Positions 40,805 to 49,702 of a stretch of DNA of 64,000 bases are shown here, piece by piece; the stretch's first letter is position 1; each line of letters starts with the position of its first letter. Location: contig JAXHLR010000004.1 of NCBI GenBank assembly GCA_034521975.1, positions 124,001 through 188,000 on the forward strand, read 5' to 3'. The stretch comes from Acidimicrobiales bacterium. Lineage in GTDB: Bacteria; Actinomycetota; Acidimicrobiia; Acidimicrobiales; SKKL01. The notes under the pieces were generated by a model. It was given only the letters and a program-made list of their open reading frames with translations. It was not told the origin of the DNA and did not search any database. Position numbers and translations under genes: made by a program.

Positions 40805-42082
40805 ATGAAGCTCGCGATCGTCGGCACCGGCATCTCCGGACTGGCCTGCGCGCACCGACTCCACCGTTCACATGAGGTCACCCTGTTCGAGGGGGCCGAC
40901 CGCGTCGGGGGCCACAGCAACACGGTCCGGGTCGACCTGGCCGACGAGACCCACCACGTCGATACCGGGTTCATCGTCTACAACGAGGCGAACTACCCGC
41001 GCTTCACCCGGCTGCTGGCCGAGCTCGGCGTCGAGACCCAGCCGAGCGAGATGAGCTTCAGCGTGCGCAACGAGCGCACCGACCACGAGTGGTCCGGGTC
41101 GAGCCTCGACGGGCTGTTCGCCCACCGGGGTGATCTCGTCCGTCCTCGCCACTGGCGGATGCTGGCCGACATCCTCCGCTTCAATCGGGCGGCCCACGCC
41201 CTGCTTGCCACCACCGCATCGACCGAGCCGGGCCCCACCCTCGACGAGTTCCTCACCGAACACCGCTTCCGCGGCGCCGTGGTGGAGGACTACGTGGTCC
41301 CCCTCGGCGCATCCATCTGGTCGGCCGATCCGACGACCTTCGGCCGCTACCCGTCGGCGTCGCTGTTCCGGTTCCTCGACAACCACGGCCTGCTCTCCCT
41401 CGGTGGCCGCCCGGCGTGGCGGACCGTCACCGGCGGATCGGCGCAGTACGTGGATCGCCTCGTCGCCCCGTTCCGCGACCGCATCCGGTTGGGTCAGGGG
41501 GTCGAGAAGGTGGTGCGCGACCCCGATGGTGGGGACGGTGGGGTGGAGCTGGTGACCGCGGACCATGAGCCCGAGCGGTTCGACCAGGTGATCCTCGCCT
41601 GTCACGCCGACGAGGCGCTGGAGCTGCTCGGCGACCCCACCCCTGCCGAGCACGAGATCCTGGGGGCGATCCGGTTCCAACCCAACGTGGCCACGTTGCA
41701 CACCGGCACCGCGATGCTGCCCCGGTCGCCGCGTGCCTGGTCGAGCTGGAACTACCACGTGACGGTCGAGGAGCGGAGGCGTCCGACCCTCACCTACTGG
41801 ATGAACCGTCTCCAGTCGCTCGACTCGGCCCACGAGATCTGTGTGACGCTGAACCGCCCCGACGAGATCAACCCGTCCACCGTGCTCGGTCAGTTCGAGT
41901 ACAGCCATCCGGTCTATGACCCCGGCACCCTTGCCGCCCAGGCCCGGCGCCACCAGATCCAGGGTCGCCGCAACACCTGGTTCGTGGGGGCCTGGTGGGG
42001 GTATGGCTTCCACGAAGATGGGGTGGCCAGCAGCGACGAGGTGGCCGCCGCCCTCGTCGATCAACATCGGAGACGGCCATGA
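40805..42082 (+). CDS. FAD-dependent oxidoreductase (amine-oxidase-like), lipid operon
   Basis: 425 residues. The N-terminal dinucleotide-binding motif is KLAIVGTGISGLACAHRL, followed by GADRVGGHSNTVRVDL (the GG doublet). The middle and C-terminal parts (TGGSAQYVDRLVAPF and TLTYWMNRLQSL) match the NAD(P)/FAD-binding proteins found next to cyclopropane fatty-acid synthases. It is the first gene of a four-gene operon in which every junction is a 4-bp ATGA/GTGA overlap. A flavin enzyme here could introduce or use a double bond in methyl-branched or cyclopropane acyl chains. The reaction is inferred from context. Confidence 0.8.
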   Translation: MKLAIVGTGISGLACAHRLHRSHEVTLFEGADRVGGHSNTVRVDLADETHHVDTGFIVYNEANYPRFTRLLAELGVETQPSEMSFSVRNERTDHEWSGSSLDGLFAHRGDLVRPRHWRMLADILRFNRAAHALLATTASTEPGPTLDEFLTEHRFRGAVVEDYVVPLGASIWSADPTTFGRYPSASLFRFLDNHGLLSLGGRPAWRTVTGGSAQYVDRLVAPFRDRIRLGQGVEKVVRDPDGGDGGVELVTADHEPERFDQVILACHADEALELLGDPTPAEHEILGAIRFQPNVATLHTGTAMLPRSPRAWSSWNYHVTVEERRRPTLTYWMNRLQSLDSAHEICVTLNRPDEINPSTVLGQFEYSHPVYDPGTLAAQARRHQIQGRRNTWFVGAWWGYGFHEDGVASSDEVAAALVDQHRRRP

Positions 42083-42852
42083 CCGCAGGCAGTGCCGGAG
42101 GGATGATCTGGACGGGCAGCGTGTGGCACCAGCGCTCGTCCCCGAGCCGCCACCGGTTCGACTACCGGATGTGGTGGGCCGACCTCGACCTCGACCGGAT
42201 CGACCACACCCTCGATCACCTCCGGATGCTCGGAACCGGGCGCGGCCGCCCGCTGCGCTTCGAACGCCGCGACTACCTCGGCGACCCCGCGACCGACCTG
42301 GCCACCGAGGTGCGCGACCTGGTCGAGCATCGCACCGGCACCCGGCCGCACGGCCCGATCCGCCTGGTCGGGCACCTGCGCACCCTCGGCTGGTGCTTCA
42401 ACCCGATCGTGCTCTACCTCTGCCACGACGCCGACGGAACCCTGGCGTGGATCGTCGCCGACGTCACCAACACGCCATGGAAGGAGCGTCACCAGTACGT
42501 GCTGCCTGCCGACGCCACCGGTGTGCACGGCCACGTCGAGGACAAGGCGTTGCACGTCTCGCCGTTCATGGGCATGGACCAGCACTACCGATTCGACATC
42601 GACGTCTCCGGCGAGCGGTTGCGGGTCCGGGTCGCGACCATCGACGGCGACACCGAGCCCTTCGCCGCCGGGGTCGACCTGACCTCCCGACCGATGACCG
42701 ACCCGGCGCTGCTCGCCAGCCTGGCCCGCCACCCGCTGCTCACCATGCGGGTCTCGCTCGGCATCCACACCCAGGCGCTTCGACTGTGGCGCAAGCGGGT
42801 GCCCCTCCACCCCCACCCCGACCGTCACGGCCAGGAGGTCCCGTCGCGGTGA
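42079..42852 (+). CDS. DUF1365 family protein
   Basis: 257 residues, whole-length match to the DUF1365 pattern: IWTGSVWHQRSSPSRHRFDY, LGWCFNPIVLYLCHDADG, DKALHVSPFMGMDQHYRF. This family nearly always lies between an FAD oxidoreductase and a cyclopropane fatty acid synthase, as here. The conserved His/Phe/Tyr-rich segments suggest a lipid-modifying enzyme, but its activity is not established. The ATG overlaps the upstream stop (ATGA). Confidence 0.85.
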   Translation: MTAGSAGGMIWTGSVWHQRSSPSRHRFDYRMWWADLDLDRIDHTLDHLRMLGTGRGRPLRFERRDYLGDPATDLATEVRDLVEHRTGTRPHGPIRLVGHLRTLGWCFNPIVLYLCHDADGTLAWIVADVTNTPWKERHQYVLPADATGVHGHVEDKALHVSPFMGMDQHYRFDIDVSGERLRVRVATIDGDTEPFAAGVDLTSRPMTDPALLASLARHPLLTMRVSLGIHTQALRLWRKRVPLHPHPDRHGQEVPSR

Positions 42853-44129
42853 GCACCTCGGTTCGACCCACGTCCCGACGTCCCCACCCCCGGCGCACCA
42901 ACCCGGCCGACCACGCCGCGCGGAGTGCCATCTTCGCCCTGCTCGACCGCATCCAGCAGGGCCGGATCACCGTCGAGGACCCCATCGGCACCCGCACCTT
43001 CGGCCCGCCGGACAGCAACCTGGCGGTGACCGTGGCGGTGCCGGCGATCGCGACCTACCGCGCGGTCCTCCTCCGGGGAAGCGCGGGCATGGGAGAGGCC
43101 TACGTCGACGGCTGGTGGGACTGCGACGACCTGCCGACGCTGGTGCGGATCCTGGCCCGCAACCTGCCCCGCCTCGATCGCGTCCGCAACGGGATCGATC
43201 GGTTCGTCTCCCCCGCCACCGACCTCGTCCGTCGTCTCCGCCCCGAGGACCCCCACCGCGACCGGCTCAACATCTCGGCCCACTACGACCTGGGCAACGA
43301 GTTCTTCGAGCTGTTCCTCGACGACACGATGATGTACTCCTCGGCCTGGTTCGCCGATCCGGCCGACACCCTCGCCGACGCCTCGACCGCCAAGCTCGAG
43401 CGCATCTGCGCCAAGCTCGACCTCGGCCCCGACGACCACGTCGTCGAGATCGGCACCGGCTGGGGTGGCTTCGCCGTGCACGCCGCCCGCGAGCACGGGT
43501 GCCGGGTCACCACCACCACCATCTCGGCCGAACAGGAGCACCACGCCCGCCGGCGGGTGGCCGCCGAGGGCCTCGACCACCTGGTGACGGTGCTGGGCGA
43601 CGACTACCGCGATCTGGCCGGCACCTACGACGCGCTGGTGTCGATCGAGATGATCGAGGCGGTCGACTGGCGAGAGCACGACCGGTTCTTCGCCACGTGC
43701 GGGCAACTGCTGCGACCCGGCGGACGGATGGCCCTGCAGGCCATCGTGTTGCCCGACCAGCGCTACGAGCGGGCCAAGACCACCCAGGACTTCATCAAGC
43801 GGTACGTGTTCCCCGGCGGCTGCCTGCCGTCGGTCGAGGCCATGGTCCGCTCCACGGCCCGCTCCACCGATCTTGCCCTCACCGGTCTGGAGGACATGGG
43901 CCAGCACTACGCCTTGACCCTGGCCCGCTGGCGCGAGCGTCTGTTCAAGCAGGAGGCCCGGCTGGGCGACCTGGAGATCGACGAGGCGTTCCTGCGGCTG
44001 TGGGACTTCTACTTCGCCTACTGCGAGGGTGCCTTCGCCGAGCGCTACGTCTCGGTGGTGCAGGCGACCTTCGCCCGCCCCGACTGGCGCCCCGCCGCCA
44101 TCGCCGCACCCACCAGATCGGGCCGATGA
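42849..44129 (+). CDS. Cyclopropane-fatty-acyl-phospholipid synthase-family methyltransferase 1
   Basis: 426 residues. An N-terminal ~110-residue domain binds the lipid bilayer. The SAM domain has VVEIGTGWGGFAVHAARE as motif I, LNISAHYDLGNEFFELFLDD before it, and the late DFIKRYVFPGGCLPS and GLEDMGQHYALTL segments of Cfa. In the substrate-site MMYSSAWF segment the second Ser stands where Cfa often has Cys. It methylates or cyclopropanates unsaturated acyl chains of phospholipids using SAM. The GTG start overlaps the DUF1365 stop (GTGA). Confidence 0.85.
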   Translation: MSTSVRPTSRRPHPRRTNPADHAARSAIFALLDRIQQGRITVEDPIGTRTFGPPDSNLAVTVAVPAIATYRAVLLRGSAGMGEAYVDGWWDCDDLPTLVRILARNLPRLDRVRNGIDRFVSPATDLVRRLRPEDPHRDRLNISAHYDLGNEFFELFLDDTMMYSSAWFADPADTLADASTAKLERICAKLDLGPDDHVVEIGTGWGGFAVHAAREHGCRVTTTTISAEQEHHARRRVAAEGLDHLVTVLGDDYRDLAGTYDALVSIEMIEAVDWREHDRFFATCGQLLRPGGRMALQAIVLPDQRYERAKTTQDFIKRYVFPGGCLPSVEAMVRSTARSTDLALTGLEDMGQHYALTLARWRERLFKQEARLGDLEIDEAFLRLWDFYFAYCEGAFAERYVSVVQATFARPDWRPAAIAAPTRSGR

Positions 44130-45178
44130 GCGCGGTGACGCCGGGCGCGGCGTGGTGGGAGCCGGTGATCGATCATGGGCTGGTGCCCGACCCGTTGCTG
44201 CGACGGATCATCACCGCCAGGGTCGCGGCCAAGGTGCGCCACGAGACGCGGGGCAGCGTCGACGAGCGTTCCGAGCGCCTCCGGTCGTTCATCGAGGCCC
44301 GCACGAAGGGGCCGGTGACCCGTCACGTCGATGACGCCAACCGCCAGCACTACGAAGTGCCCACCTCGTTCTTCGAACAGGTCCTCGGACCCCGGCTGAA
44401 GTACTCGGCCGCGATCTGGCCCGCCGGGGTGGACGATCTCGCCGACGCCGAGGAGGCCACCCTCGCCCTCACCGCCGCCAGAGCCCGTCTCTCCGACCGT
44501 CAACGGGTACTCGAGCTGGGATGCGGCTGGGGGTCGCTGTCGCTCTGGATGGCCGAGCGGTATCCCGGGTCCGACATCGTCGCGGTGTCCAACTCGGCCA
44601 CCCAGCGGGCCCACATCGAAGCCCGGGCCGCCGACGCGGGGGTCGACAACCTCACCGTGGTCACCGCCGACATCGCCGACTTCGAACCCGAGGGCACCTT
44701 CGACCGGGTCGTGTCGGTGGAGATGCTCGAACACGTGAACAACCACGGGGAGCTGCTGGTCCGCATCGCCCGTTGGCTCGAGCCCGACGGTCTGGCGTTC
44801 GCTCACGTGTTCGCCCACCGCGAGATGGGGTGGGAGTTCGACGCGGGATCGGCCGGCGACTGGATGGGCCGCTACTTCTTCACCGGCGGGGTGATGCCCT
44901 CTGATGACCTGCTCCCTCGCGTGGCCTGCGACCTCGACCTGGTCGATCACTGGCGACTCTCGGGGCGCCACTACCAGCGGACGCTCAACGCGTGGCTCTC
45001 CCGCTTGGACCAGCGCCGCGACGCGGTGTTGCCGATCCTGGCCGCCACCTACGGTGCCGATCGAGCCGAGGCCTGGTTCCACCGCTGGCGGGTGTTCTTC
45101 ATGGCCTCGGCCCAGCTGTGGGGCTACCGGCGCGGCAACGAGTTCCTCGTCAGCCACTACCTGTTCCAGCCCCGTTGA
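44126..45178 (+). CDS. Cyclopropane synthase-related SAM methyltransferase 2
   Basis: 350 residues. Same superfamily as the previous gene but a different branch: YEVPTSFFEQVLGPRLKYSAAIWP, motif I VLELGCGWGSLSLWMAERYP, VSVEMLEHVNNHGELLVRIA, and a long C-terminal tail ending in WGYRRGNEFLVSHYLFQP. Similar second methyltransferases occur in operons for furan or methyl-branched fatty acids; the name is left open. The ATG overlaps the preceding stop (ATGA). It is the last gene before the strong convergent hairpin. Confidence 0.75.
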   Translation: MSAVTPGAAWWEPVIDHGLVPDPLLRRIITARVAAKVRHETRGSVDERSERLRSFIEARTKGPVTRHVDDANRQHYEVPTSFFEQVLGPRLKYSAAIWPAGVDDLADAEEATLALTAARARLSDRQRVLELGCGWGSLSLWMAERYPGSDIVAVSNSATQRAHIEARAADAGVDNLTVVTADIADFEPEGTFDRVVSVEMLEHVNNHGELLVRIARWLEPDGLAFAHVFAHREMGWEFDAGSAGDWMGRYFFTGGVMPSDDLLPRVACDLDLVDHWRLSGRHYQRTLNAWLSRLDQRRDAVLPILAATYGADRAEAWFHRWRVFFMASAQLWGYRRGNEFLVSHYLFQPR

Positions 45179-45321: not shown

Positions 45322-46494
45322 TCAGGTCGGGATGCGGTCGAGGGCGGCGAGCACGTCGGCGACGAGATCGTCGGCGTGCTCGAGGCCCGCCGAGAGGCGC
45401 ACCGTGCCCGGGCTGATGCCGGCCGCGGCCAGCTCATCGGGGGTGAGGCCCACGTGGGTGGTCGAGGCCGGGTGGGTGACCAGGGTCTCGGGGCCGCCGA
45501 GCGAAGGAGCGAGCTGGCACAGCTCGGTGGTCTCGACGAACACACATCCGGCCTGGTAGCCGTCGGCCAGGTCGAAGGTGACCAGCCCACCGAAGTGGTC
45601 CATCTGCGCCTTGGCGAGGTCGTGCTGTGGGTGCGACGCCAGTCCCGGGTAGCGGACCCGGGCCACCTTGGGGTGGGCTTCGAGCACCTCGGCCAGGCGG
45701 TGTGCGGTCTCGCACTGGCGCTCGAACCGCACCCCGAGGGTGCGCAGGCCGCGCAGGCCGTTCATGGCGTCGAACGGCGAGGCGTTGGCCCCCTGGAGCA
45801 CCGCGAAGCCCCACAGCCAGGTGAGCAGCTCCTCGCTGCCGGCCACGACCCCGAGACTGGCGTCGTTGTGGCCGCCGATCGTCTTGGTGGCCGAGTGGAT
45901 CACCAGGTCGACCCCGTGCTCGAGCGGGCGCTGGGCGAGCGGGGTGGCGAAGGTGGAGTCGACCACGGTCATCGGCCCGGCAATCTGGCCCACGGCGTCG
46001 AGGTCGACGATGTCGAGCTGGGGGTTGGCCGGGGTCTCGGCGAACACCAGCACCGTCTTGCCCGGACGAACCGCCTCGGCGAAGGCTCCGGGCTCGGTGC
46101 CGTCGACGAAGGTGACGTCGATCCCGAACCGGGGACACGCCGCCTGCAACAGCAGCTGGGTTCCGGCGTAGAGCTGGCGCTGGGCAACGATGTGGTCGCC
46201 CGCCGAACACAGACCGAGGATGATCGCGCTGACCGCACCCATGCCCGAGGCGAACGCTCGGGCCGACTCGGCCCCTTCGAGGTCGGCGATCGCCTGCTCG
46301 AACGCACAGACGGTGGGGTTGCCGTAGCGGGTGTAGAAGCGCGGTGCCCCGGCCACGGTGGCCATGCGCCGGCTGTCCTCGACGGTGGGGGTGACGAAGG
46401 TGGTGGTGGCCCAGAGGATGGGAGCCAGGGCGGTGTCGTTGTCGTCGCGACCGCCGCGAATGGCGCGGGTCTCCAGGTGGAGGAGCTCATCCAT
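45322..46494 (-). CDS. Transsulfuration-family PLP enzyme (cystathionine gamma-synthase/OAH sulfhydrylase-like)
   Basis: 390 residues, PLP-dependent fold type I. The Schiff-base Lys is in VIHSATKTIGGH (about residue 203). SGMGAVSAIILGLCSAGD and TRYGNPTV are cofactor/substrate loops, and HPASTTHVGLTPDEL near the C-terminus is conserved in the family. Together with the overlapping upstream metX it should turn O-acetylhomoserine into cystathionine or homocysteine. Cystathionine synthase, direct sulfhydrylase and gamma-lyase activities cannot be separated by sequence inspection alone. Its ATG overlaps the metX stop by 8 bp; both lie behind the SAM riboswitch. Confidence 0.82.
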   Translation of the reverse strand: MDELLHLETRAIRGGRDDNDTALAPILWATTTFVTPTVEDSRRMATVAGAPRFYTRYGNPTVCAFEQAIADLEGAESARAFASGMGAVSAIILGLCSAGDHIVAQRQLYAGTQLLLQAACPRFGIDVTFVDGTEPGAFAEAVRPGKTVLVFAETPANPQLDIVDLDAVGQIAGPMTVVDSTFATPLAQRPLEHGVDLVIHSATKTIGGHNDASLGVVAGSEELLTWLWGFAVLQGANASPFDAMNGLRGLRTLGVRFERQCETAHRLAEVLEAHPKVARVRYPGLASHPQHDLAKAQMDHFGGLVTFDLADGYQAGCVFVETTELCQLAPSLGGPETLVTHPASTTHVGLTPDELAAAGISPGTVRLSAGLEHADDLVADVLAALDRIPT

Positions 46495-47740
46495 GCTTGT
46501 CGGCCTCGTCGAGCAGTGCGGTCAGCGGCGGTCCGACCTGTTCGGGTTCGAGGAGGAAGCCGTCGTGGCCGTGGGGGCTGGAGATGCACACGTGGTCGAA
46601 CAGCCGACCCCGCTCCGCCAGCTCGTCGCGCAACAGCTCCTGTTGGTAGGGGGGATAGAGGGTGTCGGAGTTGATGGCGAGGGTCAGCACCGGGGCTGCC
46701 ACCCGGTCGAGCGCCCGGGCGGTGTCGCCGCGCTTGCGGGCCAGATCGTGCAGGTCCATGGCCTTGTTCAACAACAGGTAGGAGTTGGCGTCGAAGCGCC
46801 GGACGAGCTTCTCGCCGTGGTAATCGAGGTAGCTCTCGACCTGGAAGCGGTCCCAGAGCTCGAGGCGGTCGACCGGCTCGACGGTGCGGCGATCGAAGCG
46901 CTCCTGGAACACCGGTTCGCTGCGATAGTGGATCTGGGCGATCTGGCGGGCCAGCGAGAGACCTTCGTGGGGACCGTCACCGGGTTCGGCGTCGTAGTAG
47001 TCACCGTCGCGCCAGCGGGGATCGTTGGCCACCGCGTGACGGCCCACGTGGCTCCAGGCGATCTGTTGGGCACTGGCCGCGACCGAGGTGGCCAGCGCGC
47101 CCACCGCCCGGACCCGGTCGGGGTACATCACCGCCCACTCGAGGGCCTGCATGCCGCCCATCGACCCGCCGACGACGGCCAGCCACCGCTCGATGCCGAG
47201 GTGGACCTGCAGCGCCGCCTGGGTGCGGACCATGTCGCGGATCGTGACCACCGGGAAGCGGGCGGCGTAGGGGCGACCGGTGGAAGGGTCGATCGAGGCG
47301 GGTCCGGTGGTGCCCTGACAACCACCGAGCACGTTGACACACACCACGAACCACCGGTCGGTGTCGATGGCCTTGCCCGGTCCGACCAGATCGTCCCACC
47401 ATCCCATCACCGGGTGCCCGTGCCCGCTCGATCCCGCCACGTGCGAGTCGCCGGTGAGGGCGTGTTCGACGAGCACGGCGTTGGTGCCCTCGGCGTCGAG
47501 CTCGCCCCAGGTCTCGTAGGCGATGTCGACGCCCCGGAGCACCCCACCGCCTTCGAGGGCGAAGGGCCGCTCGGCGGGCAGGTGGAAGAACCGGCGACGT
47601 CCGACCTCGTCGCCGGGACGCCAGGCGCCGGTGGCCGGCAGCCGGCTGGGATGGGTCTGGGGGCGACCCGATCGCGCCAGGTGGTTGTCGGCGCCGGCGG
47701 GCGCAGCGAGGTCGCCGTTGGTGGTGGGGTCGGTGGTCAC
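46487..47740 (-). CDS. metX: Homoserine O-acetyltransferase
   Basis: 417 residues of the alpha/beta-hydrolase MetX family. It transfers acetyl from acetyl-CoA to homoserine, the first committed step of methionine synthesis. The nucleophile is in VVGGSMGGMQALEW (GxSxGG, about residue 180). The acid is in TLAINSDTLYPPYQQ and the His in SSPHGHDGFLLE, completing the triad. TWGELDAEGTNAVLVEHALTGDSH is the N-terminal family block. The GTG at 47740 with GGAG 9 nt upstream is chosen; an in-frame ATG at 47812 with GGAGGAG 6 nt upstream would add 24 residues but would run through the putative expression-platform hairpin. Regulated by the SAM riboswitch upstream. Confidence 0.9.
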   Translation of the reverse strand: MTTDPTTNGDLAAPAGADNHLARSGRPQTHPSRLPATGAWRPGDEVGRRRFFHLPAERPFALEGGGVLRGVDIAYETWGELDAEGTNAVLVEHALTGDSHVAGSSGHGHPVMGWWDDLVGPGKAIDTDRWFVVCVNVLGGCQGTTGPASIDPSTGRPYAARFPVVTIRDMVRTQAALQVHLGIERWLAVVGGSMGGMQALEWAVMYPDRVRAVGALATSVAASAQQIAWSHVGRHAVANDPRWRDGDYYDAEPGDGPHEGLSLARQIAQIHYRSEPVFQERFDRRTVEPVDRLELWDRFQVESYLDYHGEKLVRRFDANSYLLLNKAMDLHDLARKRGDTARALDRVAAPVLTLAINSDTLYPPYQQELLRDELAERGRLFDHVCISSPHGHDGFLLEPEQVGPPLTALLDEADKHG

Positions 47741-47759
47741 CGGCTCGTTCTCCGGCGAC

Positions 47760-47815
47760 GGATGGAGGCGCGCACGCGCACGCCGTGAGCGTAGCGGTGA
47801 GTGCCTCTCCATCCC
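47760..47815 (-). promoter_or_regulatory. Expression-platform hairpin before metX
   Basis: Arms GGATGGAGAGGC and GCCTCCATCC pair with a one-base bulge around a ~33-nt loop, directly upstream of the metX ribosome-binding GGAG and GTG at 47740. It could be the riboswitch-controlled translation or transcription switch. It also contains the alternative upstream ATG of metX. Confidence 0.4.
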
Positions 47816-47889
47816 ATGCTCCTCCATCGAGTTCGTCGGTCGCACTCGGGAGCTGACTCTGTGGGATGGACGCCCGTTGGCCGGTGGAA

Positions 47890-48028
47890 CGGGCGGGATC
47901 TCGCCCGGACGCTTCGTTGCCGAGTGTTGGCCACTCGACCACATCCCCACCGAGGTGGGAGGCACCTTGGGCGTCCAGTCCCAGGTTGCCGAGCCCGACC
48001 GTGCGGGCCACTCCTGATGCGCCCTCCA
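47890..48028 (-). promoter_or_regulatory. SAM riboswitch (SAM-I/IV-like) with downstream hairpin
   Basis: Read on the minus strand: P1 GGAGGgCGC (to 48027) pairs with GTGCCTCC (47958..47965). Inside it are ATCAGGAGTGG, a P2 hairpin GCCCG-CACGGT-CGGGC, the junction CTCGGCAACC (the SAM-I core GGCAACC) and a P3 hairpin TGGG/CCCA followed by AAGGTGCC. Outside P1 lies a P4 hairpin CCCAC-CTCG-GTGGG (47946..47959) and a further stem CGAGTG/CACTCG (47921..47937), which are SAM-IV-like. At 47890..47907 a perfect 6-bp hairpin CGGGCG/CGCCCG follows. It begins 61 bp after the acyl-CoA synthetase stop and precedes metX. Recognised by eye, not by covariance search. Confidence 0.75.
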
Positions 48029-48088
48029 GCTTCGCGGGCGCCGAGGCGTGCGTCAAGCACAACGGACCGTGGTCGAGCCCGACGATGC

Positions 48089-49702
48089 TCAGCCGGTGCC
48101 GACCACCTCGCGCGCCTGGGCGGTGAGGCGCTTGTAGTCGACCTTGCCGTTGACGGCCCGACCGATGGTCTCGACCACGACCAGGTGCCGCGGCGCCTTG
48201 TAGGCGGCGAGGCCCCCCTTCACGTGGGCGCTGAGCTCGTCGAGGGTCGGAGCCTGGCCGCCCGCGGCGGGTTCGACCACGGCGCAGATGGCTTCGCCGA
48301 AGCGCTCGTCGGGTACGGCGACACACACCGCATCGTTCACCGTCGGGTGCCGCTTGAGCGCCTCCTCGACCTCTTCGGGGTAGACCTTCTCGCCCCCGGT
48401 GTTGATGCAGACCGACCCCCGGCCCAACAGGTTGAGGGTGCCGTCATCGTTGACCGTGGCCCAGTCGCCGGGGATCGAGTATCGAACCCCGTCGACGGTC
48501 CGGAACGTGGCGTCGGTCTTGGCCTGGTCCTTGTAGTAGCCGACCGGGATCGCACCGCCGACCGCGACCATCCCCGCCTCACCCGATCCGGGCGCCACCT
48601 CGCGGCCGTCGTCGGTGAACACCTTGCAGCGGGGCCCCACCCTGAACTTGGCGGTGGACTCGGTGCGGTCGGCACTGGACACCGACGCGCCCATGCCGAG
48701 CGCCTCGGAGGACGCGAAGTTGTCCGACAGCGTCACCTGGGGGATGTGGCCGATGAGACCGTCCTTGACCTCCTGGCTCCACATGACACCCGAGGAGATC
48801 ATGGCCACCACGCTGGAGAGGTCGTAGCGGTCGCGGTTGGCGTCGAGCTCGGCCAGCATCGGCTTGGCGAAGGCGTCGCCGACGATGGAGAGGACGTTGA
48901 CCGAGCGCTCGTCGACGACCCGCCACAGCTCGGCGGAATCGAAGTGGCGGCTGGGCAGGGCGACGACGGCTCCGCCGAGCTGCATGATGCCGAAGGCGCT
49001 GAACTGACCGGTGCCGTGCATCATGGGGCAGGCCACCAGCAGGCTCACCCCGCCGGTCGCCCGCTCGGCGATGTCGTCGAGCGACTCGGCCGGTGCGCTA
49101 CCGACGAGAGCGTTTCCGCCGCGGCCGAGCACGGTGAACAGGTCGTCCTGGCGCCACATGACGCCCTTGGGCATGCCGGTCGTGCCGCCGGTGTAGAGCA
49201 TGAGGATGTCGTCGCCGCTGCGCCCCCAGGGCGGCACGACCCGGTCGGCTCCCTCGCCGACCAGGGCCTGGTAGTCGGCGGCCCACGGTGGGATGCCGCT
49301 GCCGGTGTCGTCGATGGCGTACCAGCGCCGCACGGCGGGCAGCTCGCCGCGGATGCGGTCGATGAGCTCGGCGAAGCTGGTGTGAAAGACCACGGCCTCG
49401 GCGTCGGCGTTGTCGAACAGGTAGGCGACCTCGTCGGGCCCGTAGCGGTAGTTGGTGTTGAACGGCACCATCGCCGCCTTGAACGAGCCGTGGACGATCT
49501 CGAAGTACTCGGGGCAGTTGTAGAGGTAGACGCCGACCTTGGACTGCTGTCCCAGACCGGCGTCGAGCAGATCTGCCGCCAACGCGTTGGCTCGACGGTC
49601 GAAGTCGCCCCAGGTGCGGACCACCTCGCCCTGGATCTGTGCCGGGGCGTCGGGCACCGCGCCCGCGACCGCCTCGAACACGTCGCCGAAGTTCCAGCTC
49701 AC
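48089..49702 (-). CDS. Acyl-CoA synthetase (AMP-forming)
   Basis: 537 residues of the ANL superfamily. A3 motif YTGGTTGMPKG (about residue 170), A5 in SDNFASSEALGMG, A7 in SIPGDWATVNDDGTLNLLGRG, A10 catalytic Lys in GRAVNGKVDYKRL. It activates a carboxylic acid, probably a fatty or steroid-side-chain acid as in FadD3/FadD19-like enzymes, to the CoA thioester via an acyl-AMP. The GTG start is directly followed by the conserved N-terminus. The substrate is not determined. Confidence 0.85.
   Translation of the reverse strand: MSWNFGDVFEAVAGAVPDAPAQIQGEVVRTWGDFDRRANALAADLLDAGLGQQSKVGVYLYNCPEYFEIVHGSFKAAMVPFNTNYRYGPDEVAYLFDNADAEAVVFHTSFAELIDRIRGELPAVRRWYAIDDTGSGIPPWAADYQALVGEGADRVVPPWGRSGDDILMLYTGGTTGMPKGVMWRQDDLFTVLGRGGNALVGSAPAESLDDIAERATGGVSLLVACPMMHGTGQFSAFGIMQLGGAVVALPSRHFDSAELWRVVDERSVNVLSIVGDAFAKPMLAELDANRDRYDLSSVVAMISSGVMWSQEVKDGLIGHIPQVTLSDNFASSEALGMGASVSSADRTESTAKFRVGPRCKVFTDDGREVAPGSGEAGMVAVGGAIPVGYYKDQAKTDATFRTVDGVRYSIPGDWATVNDDGTLNLLGRGSVCINTGGEKVYPEEVEEALKRHPTVNDAVCVAVPDERFGEAICAVVEPAAGGQAPTLDELSAHVKGGLAAYKAPRHLVVVETIGRAVNGKVDYKRLTAQAREVVGTG

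Follow-up and report, generated by a model that had tools for sequence, protein, structure and literature searches.

The metX operon and its leader

The window, that is, the whole 64,000-nucleotide stretch of Acidimicrobiales DNA analysed here, harbours on its minus strand two overlapping genes headed by a structured leader. The genes are as follows.

46487..47812, minus strand: metX, homoserine O-acetyltransferase (NF001209; start codon inferred)
45322..46494, minus strand: PLP-dependent enzyme of the trans-sulfuration family (NCBIfam, below cut-offs)

The metX product, queried in the shorter reading from 47737, scores 481 bits against NF001209 (cut-off 331), in agreement with the original prediction, which had placed metX behind the leader. 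The AUG of metX (47812..47810) was assigned from the reading frames of two related loci, L002 and L083; the frame opened by it is kept in both and in the later residues of a third locus, L004. A GTG at 47740 is a possible alternative start. Within the N-terminal extension (47812-47774, minus strand) the stretch [ST]P[LV]RS[RH]R[AP]R is common to the window, L002, L004 and L083. The best NCBIfam matches of the PLP-dependent enzyme are TIGR01328 (375 bits) and NF005695 (366.6 bits), both under their cut-offs, and the start of its gene overlaps the end of metX (46494 vs 46487).

The gene upstream of the leader codes for an acyl-CoA synthetase on the same strand and ends at 48089. It is followed, ahead of the leader, by a terminator-like hairpin with a T-rich tail (48081..48063, minus strand), which suggests that metX is possibly transcribed from a promoter of its own; a scan of 47700..48150 yielded none of the sigma-70 type. 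On the plus strand, two frames with the CMAS domain of the SAM-dependent cyclopropane synthetase family (41916-44129 and 44126-45178) converge on the metX operon.

The SAM-I/IV aptamer and its relatives

The original prediction, a SAM-I/IV-like riboswitch preceding methionine genes, had named a search with three covariance models as its check. When the whole window was scanned against 4227 families, RF01725 (SAM-I-IV) matched 48025..47914 of the minus strand with 43.4 bits, above its gathering score of 41.1 (E 0.00099 for a scan of this size). A narrow rescan found RF01725 again, the five other families listed (one lower-scoring match of the RF01725 clan is omitted from that listing) staying far below their gathering scores. 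In the 3.3-Mb genome the metX leader aptamer is the one RF01725 match at E<=0.001. RF00162 (SAM-I) does not reach its cut-off at the aptamer (20.4 bits vs gathering 44.4, E 0.086), which is nevertheless its best placement in the genome. With 150 of the 1398 first-look candidates scored, RF00634 (SAM-IV) gave nothing at the aptamer site even at E<=10, and none over its cut-off of 38 bits in the genome, the best match elsewhere reaching 19.1. The prediction was thus borne out by the RF01725 match and by the covariation described below. The folding energy of the stretch is unremarkable against shuffled sequences (z -0.46), and thermodynamic folding of the stretch alone was dropped as evidence, because shuffles fold equally well; the support for the aptamer therefore comes from the covariance model and from covariation among relatives. 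The components of the aptamer and the hairpin next to it are listed below.

47907..48020, minus strand: SAM-I/IV aptamer, P1 5' strand through PK-2 strand (RF01725 match and helix coordinates)
48016..48020, minus strand: P1 5' strand GCAUC (fold and 52-row alignment)
47941..47945, minus strand: P1 3' strand GAUGU (fold and 52-row alignment)
47991..48011, minus strand: P2, a single hairpin with one bulge and without internal loop (Rfam match, fold and alignment)
47961..47990, minus strand: P3 with the GGCAACC / AAGGUGCC core (Rfam match, fold and alignment)
47979..47972, minus strand: loop L3 ACUGGACG, within P3
47946..47959, minus strand: P4 hairpin CCCAC-CUCG-GUGGG, within the junction closed by P1 (sequence and fold)
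47919..47939, minus strand: P5 hairpin GUCGAGUG-GCCAA-CACUCGGC, outside P1 (relatives, fold and alignment)
47907..47911, minus strand: PK-2 strand CGUCC, partner of GGACG in L3 at 47976..47972 (alignment of 52)
47890..47907, minus strand: P6 hairpin CGGGC...GCCCG, directly 3' of PK-2 (read by eye only)

All of the predicted core, namely P1, P2, GGCAACC and the AAGGTGCC element, was located on the minus strand. The claim that P4-like and further hairpins lie outside P1 holds in part: P5 and the PK-2 strand are outside, the latter just beyond the end of the Rfam match, whereas P4 sits inside the junction, between P3 and the P1 3' strand, as in SAM-I. P2 is interrupted by the single bulge only. 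The P6 hairpin can also be read by eye in L002, L004 and L083. The four-pair P5 placed by Rfam was rejected in favour of a longer hairpin, which covaries and is followed by a conserved CAAC tail; the Rfam placement is off, because L002, L004 and L083 carry P5 hairpins of differing sequence where the longer hairpin lies, and in each of them AACGAAGCGUCCGG comes next.

For the aptamer alignment, 52 of the 61 listed references were used; the rows left out (L008, L010, L013, L035, L039, L128, L151, L170 and L171) mostly have an unclear PK-2 or a divergent form. Changes on both sides of a pair were observed in 19 of the 35 pairs, while shuffling gave a mean of 11.4 and none of 500 shuffles reached the observed number. 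Sliding the partners abolishes the signal, the proportion of paired cells falling from 89.6% to between 35.9 and 50.6%. P2 changed on both sides in 5 of 6 pairs (96.4% of cells paired), and the outer four pairs of P5 in three (93.8%). The pseudoknot PK-2, which joins L3 to the 3' tail, showed such changes in 5 of 6 pairs with 89.4% of cells paired, a count biased in its favour, since rows with an unclear PK-2 had been omitted beforehand and the references ended at the called PK-2. P3 is paired in 100% of cells, 6 of its 9 pairs being invariant. In P1, no pair changed on both sides and 4 of 5 vary on one side only; its inner four pairs keep standard pairing in 50 or more of the 52 rows, the outermost one doing so in 26 and failing in the other 26. 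P4 aligns badly in this set, with 66.5% and 28.3% of its cells paired.

Judged by model score and covariation, the minus-strand segment 48020..47907 is almost certainly the aptamer of a SAM-I/IV riboswitch, a known class. Its ligand is very probably SAM, and its action, with the same degree of confidence, very probably repression. One feature that might hint at a changed ligand, as in the spermidine variants of SAM-I, is the J1/2 sequence AGGA in place of the Rfam consensus AAGA. Yet this position has no majority base across the 52 relatives, in which the P3 core is nearly invariant, and the gene behind the aptamer is metX, while the spermidine variants, as described in passages of PMC10853860, carry changes in the P3 internal loop as well as in J1/2 and accompany polyamine genes. 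Such a change of ligand is accordingly regarded as most improbable.

Most of the relatives retrieved through MetX carry the label Acidimicrobiia, Acidimicrobiales or uncultured actinobacteria; the two best are 81% (Acidimicrobiales) and 76% (Acidimicrobiia) identical. All 4 genomes of the family, the present one among them, have an RF01725 match over the cut-off; under stricter filters, by which weak matches are lost, such a match was obtained in 76 of 296 genomes sampled from the class and in 16 of 396 sampled from the phylum, class included. Of 80 metX loci, 59 (L003-L061) were scanned with Rfam in addition to L002, L062-L082 being left out. The core motif lies upstream in 33 of the 59, and 18 of these 33 leaders miss the Rfam cut-off (L006, L007, L009, L010, L011, L024, L025, L033 and L034, together with L036, L038, L040, L042, L045, L046, L048, L050 and L054), so that many SAM-I/IV leaders are probably missed by it. 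L032 is over the cut-off yet lacks the core motif. The class is thereby shown to be common ahead of metX in Acidimicrobiia.

A wider set of leaders was collected from 223 loci, 84 of which lack the core by the pattern used. It comprised 134 distinct aptamers, 91 after removal of near-duplicates and 65 non-redundant leaders after the exclusion of 26 rows from the AT-rich loci L085-L114 and L221. The sequence behind the aptamer codes for MetX in 52 of the 65, for a PLP-dependent enzyme in 2 and for neither in 11; for L130, only 196 bases of sequence are available behind the aptamer. The genomes behind L085-L114 are small, belong to a single genus of the class (g66) and carry one to three high-scoring SAM-I/IV matches each; at the Shine-Dalgarno (SD) sequence of several of these loci sits a short UUCUCC/GGAGAA hairpin.

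The anti-P3 element and the start region

Downstream of the aptamer lie three further features of interest.

47862..47875, minus strand: anti-P3 element GGGCGUCCAUCCCA, able to form 14 pairs, with one bulge, along the entire P3 apex
47821..47825, minus strand: Shine-Dalgarno-like GGAGG, 8 nt before the AUG at 47812..47810
47808..47816, minus strand: start-codon region UGGGAUGGA, nine bases complementary to the part UCCAUCCCA (47870..47862) of anti-P3

The apex of P3 to which anti-P3 is complementary reads UGGGA(C)UGGACGCCC. The duplex of the two has a calculated energy of -28.2 kcal/mol, and the unconstrained minimum-energy fold of the full leader (-120.4 kcal/mol) adopts it. Complementarity of this kind might arise by chance in GC-rich DNA, regulation being exerted by some other pairing, for instance that of CAUCCCAC (47868..47861) with a stretch ending in the P1 3' strand; by eye, GUGGGGAUG is indeed nearly complementary to CAUCCCAC. 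However, in the window only 5 of 10000 dinucleotide shuffles were as good, and an anti-P3 element at p<=0.005 was found in 12 of the 65 non-redundant leaders against 0.3 expected, the remaining 53 falling short; at p<=0.05 there were 18 against 3.2 expected. MetX is encoded behind 9 of the 12. A contiguous complement of at least 8 bases occurs in 13 of the 65 leaders, whereas 200 sets of dinucleotide shuffles gave a mean of 1.12 and a maximum of 6, and exchanging the P3 for those of other leaders gave a mean of 3.99 and a maximum of 8 in 500 swaps. Ranked by duplex energy among all P3s, a leader's own P3 came within the top tenth in 14 of 65 cases against 6.5 expected, a modest excess that leaves the chance reading some room, and in 8 of the 12 leaders with a significant element.

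Further evidence comes from sequence change: among 16 leaders preselected for the element, anti-P3 tracks the P3 apex (GGACGCC/GGCGUCC, GGACACC/GGUGUCC and GGACAGCC/GGCUGUCC), with compensatory pair types at three positions (U-A/C-G/A-U, G-C/A-U and C-G/G-C). Recurrence and compensation both argue against a chance complement, which the feeble pairing of the element with the start region, discussed below, would favour; on balance, chance is considered an unlikely explanation. From these comparisons, anti-P3 is a probable expression platform. In the literature searched on SAM-I/IV, SAM-IV and actinobacterial or Acidimicrobiia riboswitches, no description of such a platform was found; the platform may be new, or may have been described in the structure paper (Trausch 2014) or in the supplements of Weinberg 2010.

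The way in which anti-P3 would act can be outlined as a relay. When SAM is plentiful, the riboswitch would turn off metX and the overlapping gene of the PLP-dependent enzyme: SAM binding would lock P1, P3 and PK-2 and leave anti-P3 free, and the freed element would pair with the start region and block translation. Without SAM, anti-P3 would invade P3 through its 14 pairs, destroying the aptamer core together with PK-2 and freeing the start codon. In the modelled folds, the pairs between UGGGAUGGA and UCCAUCCCA have probabilities of 0.84-1.0 with the aptamer locked and 0.24-0.28 in the unconstrained state, and the AUG at 47812 is unpaired with a probability of 0.58 when anti-P3 is forced vs 0.00 when the aptamer is forced. 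The aptamer-forced fold, calculated without the energy of PK-2 or of the ligand, amounts to -110.3 kcal/mol, 10 above the unconstrained one, a gap which PK-2 and the ligand would have to cover.

Other results are less favourable to the relay. In the window, the duplex of the element with the start region is no better than in shuffles (p 0.186). Among the 16 leaders, which had been picked for having anti-P3 and whose start codons were chosen by eye, none was significant singly (lowest p 0.074), and significance was attained jointly only (Fisher p 0.017). The SD of the window is mostly paired in both modelled states (unpaired 0.24 with anti-P3 forced and 0.30 with the aptamer locked). When anti-P3 was blocked in folds of the tail, access to the SD of the window rose from 0.30 to no more than 0.36, control blocks averaging 0.40; blocking it raised SD access in several leaders and lowered it in L147, which gives no clean support. 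Given the weak start pairing, an SD mostly paired in both states and the small effect of blocking, the relay has to be treated as a good hypothesis and not as a result, and the chances that it operates in the window leader seem about even. Translational repression through the start codon is likely.

A real aptamer could also act by transcription termination, intrinsic or Rho-dependent, rather than on the start codon. According to passages of PMC10853860, SAM-I switches often turn genes off at the level of transcription, and the P6 hairpin directly follows PK-2. A simple terminator scan of 47700..48150, however, gave a single hit, the upstream hairpin at 48081..48063, and nothing from the aptamer to metX; an intrinsic terminator in that interval was consequently rejected, and termination as a whole is considered improbable.

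By pattern count, an SD-like sequence lies no more than a few bases 3' of the PK-2 strand in 9 of the 65 leaders (L006, L009, L010, L011, L033, L044, L148, L158 and L163), apparently a different coupling to translation. Nine is probably an undercount, as L008 looks alike by eye and its PK-2 was miscalled. None of these nine is among the 12 leaders with significant anti-P3, a lack of overlap that is not significant (chance 0.14); it fits two alternative platforms and could be chance. In such leaders it seems likely that formation of PK-2 itself hides the ribosome site. In the window, by contrast, 81 bases separate the PK-2 strand (ending at 47907) from the SD (47825), and this mode of action is regarded as highly improbable here. 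The reading preferred for the window, a SAM-I/IV switch repressing metX and the gene of the PLP-dependent enzyme, with the anti-P3 relay included, is held to be fairly probable as a whole.

A broader proposal can be put forward tentatively and with some doubt: the SAM-I/IV riboswitches of Acidimicrobiia and their relatives would employ an undescribed platform, in which anti-P3 switches from invasion of P3 to masking of the ribosome site and back, the pseudoknot loop mimics the start region, and an SD placed against PK-2 serves as the alternative platform. If this is true, an aptamer that a 3' pseudoknot closes off would signal to the gene start through rival pairings of the P3 apex and L3, instead of or besides those of P1.

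Comparison with known SAM riboswitches

The SAM-I/IV variants are characterised in passages of PMC2864571 by traits of both families and a P2 without internal loop, and in passages of PMC6890682 by an undivided P2, the absence of PK-1 and the presence of P4. The compact form with SAM-I and SAM-IV traits that had been predicted for the window corresponds to this published class. With SAM-I/IV (RF01725; Weinberg 2010, PMC2864571) the window shares the core, P2 without internal loop, P4, P5, PK-2 and a methionine gene behind; it differs from the Rfam description in its longer P5, misplaced by the Rfam alignment, and goes beyond the descriptions of the class that were found in having the downstream anti-P3 element. 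The ligand core and the P1/P3/P4 junction are those of SAM-I (RF00162), from which the window departs in lacking the P2 internal loop, in carrying PK-2 and P5 outside P1 and in scoring far below 44.4 bits. It resembles SAM-IV (RF00634) in having P5 and PK-2 outside P1 and, unlike SAM-IV, with no match of that family listed at the site, it possesses P4 and an undivided P2.
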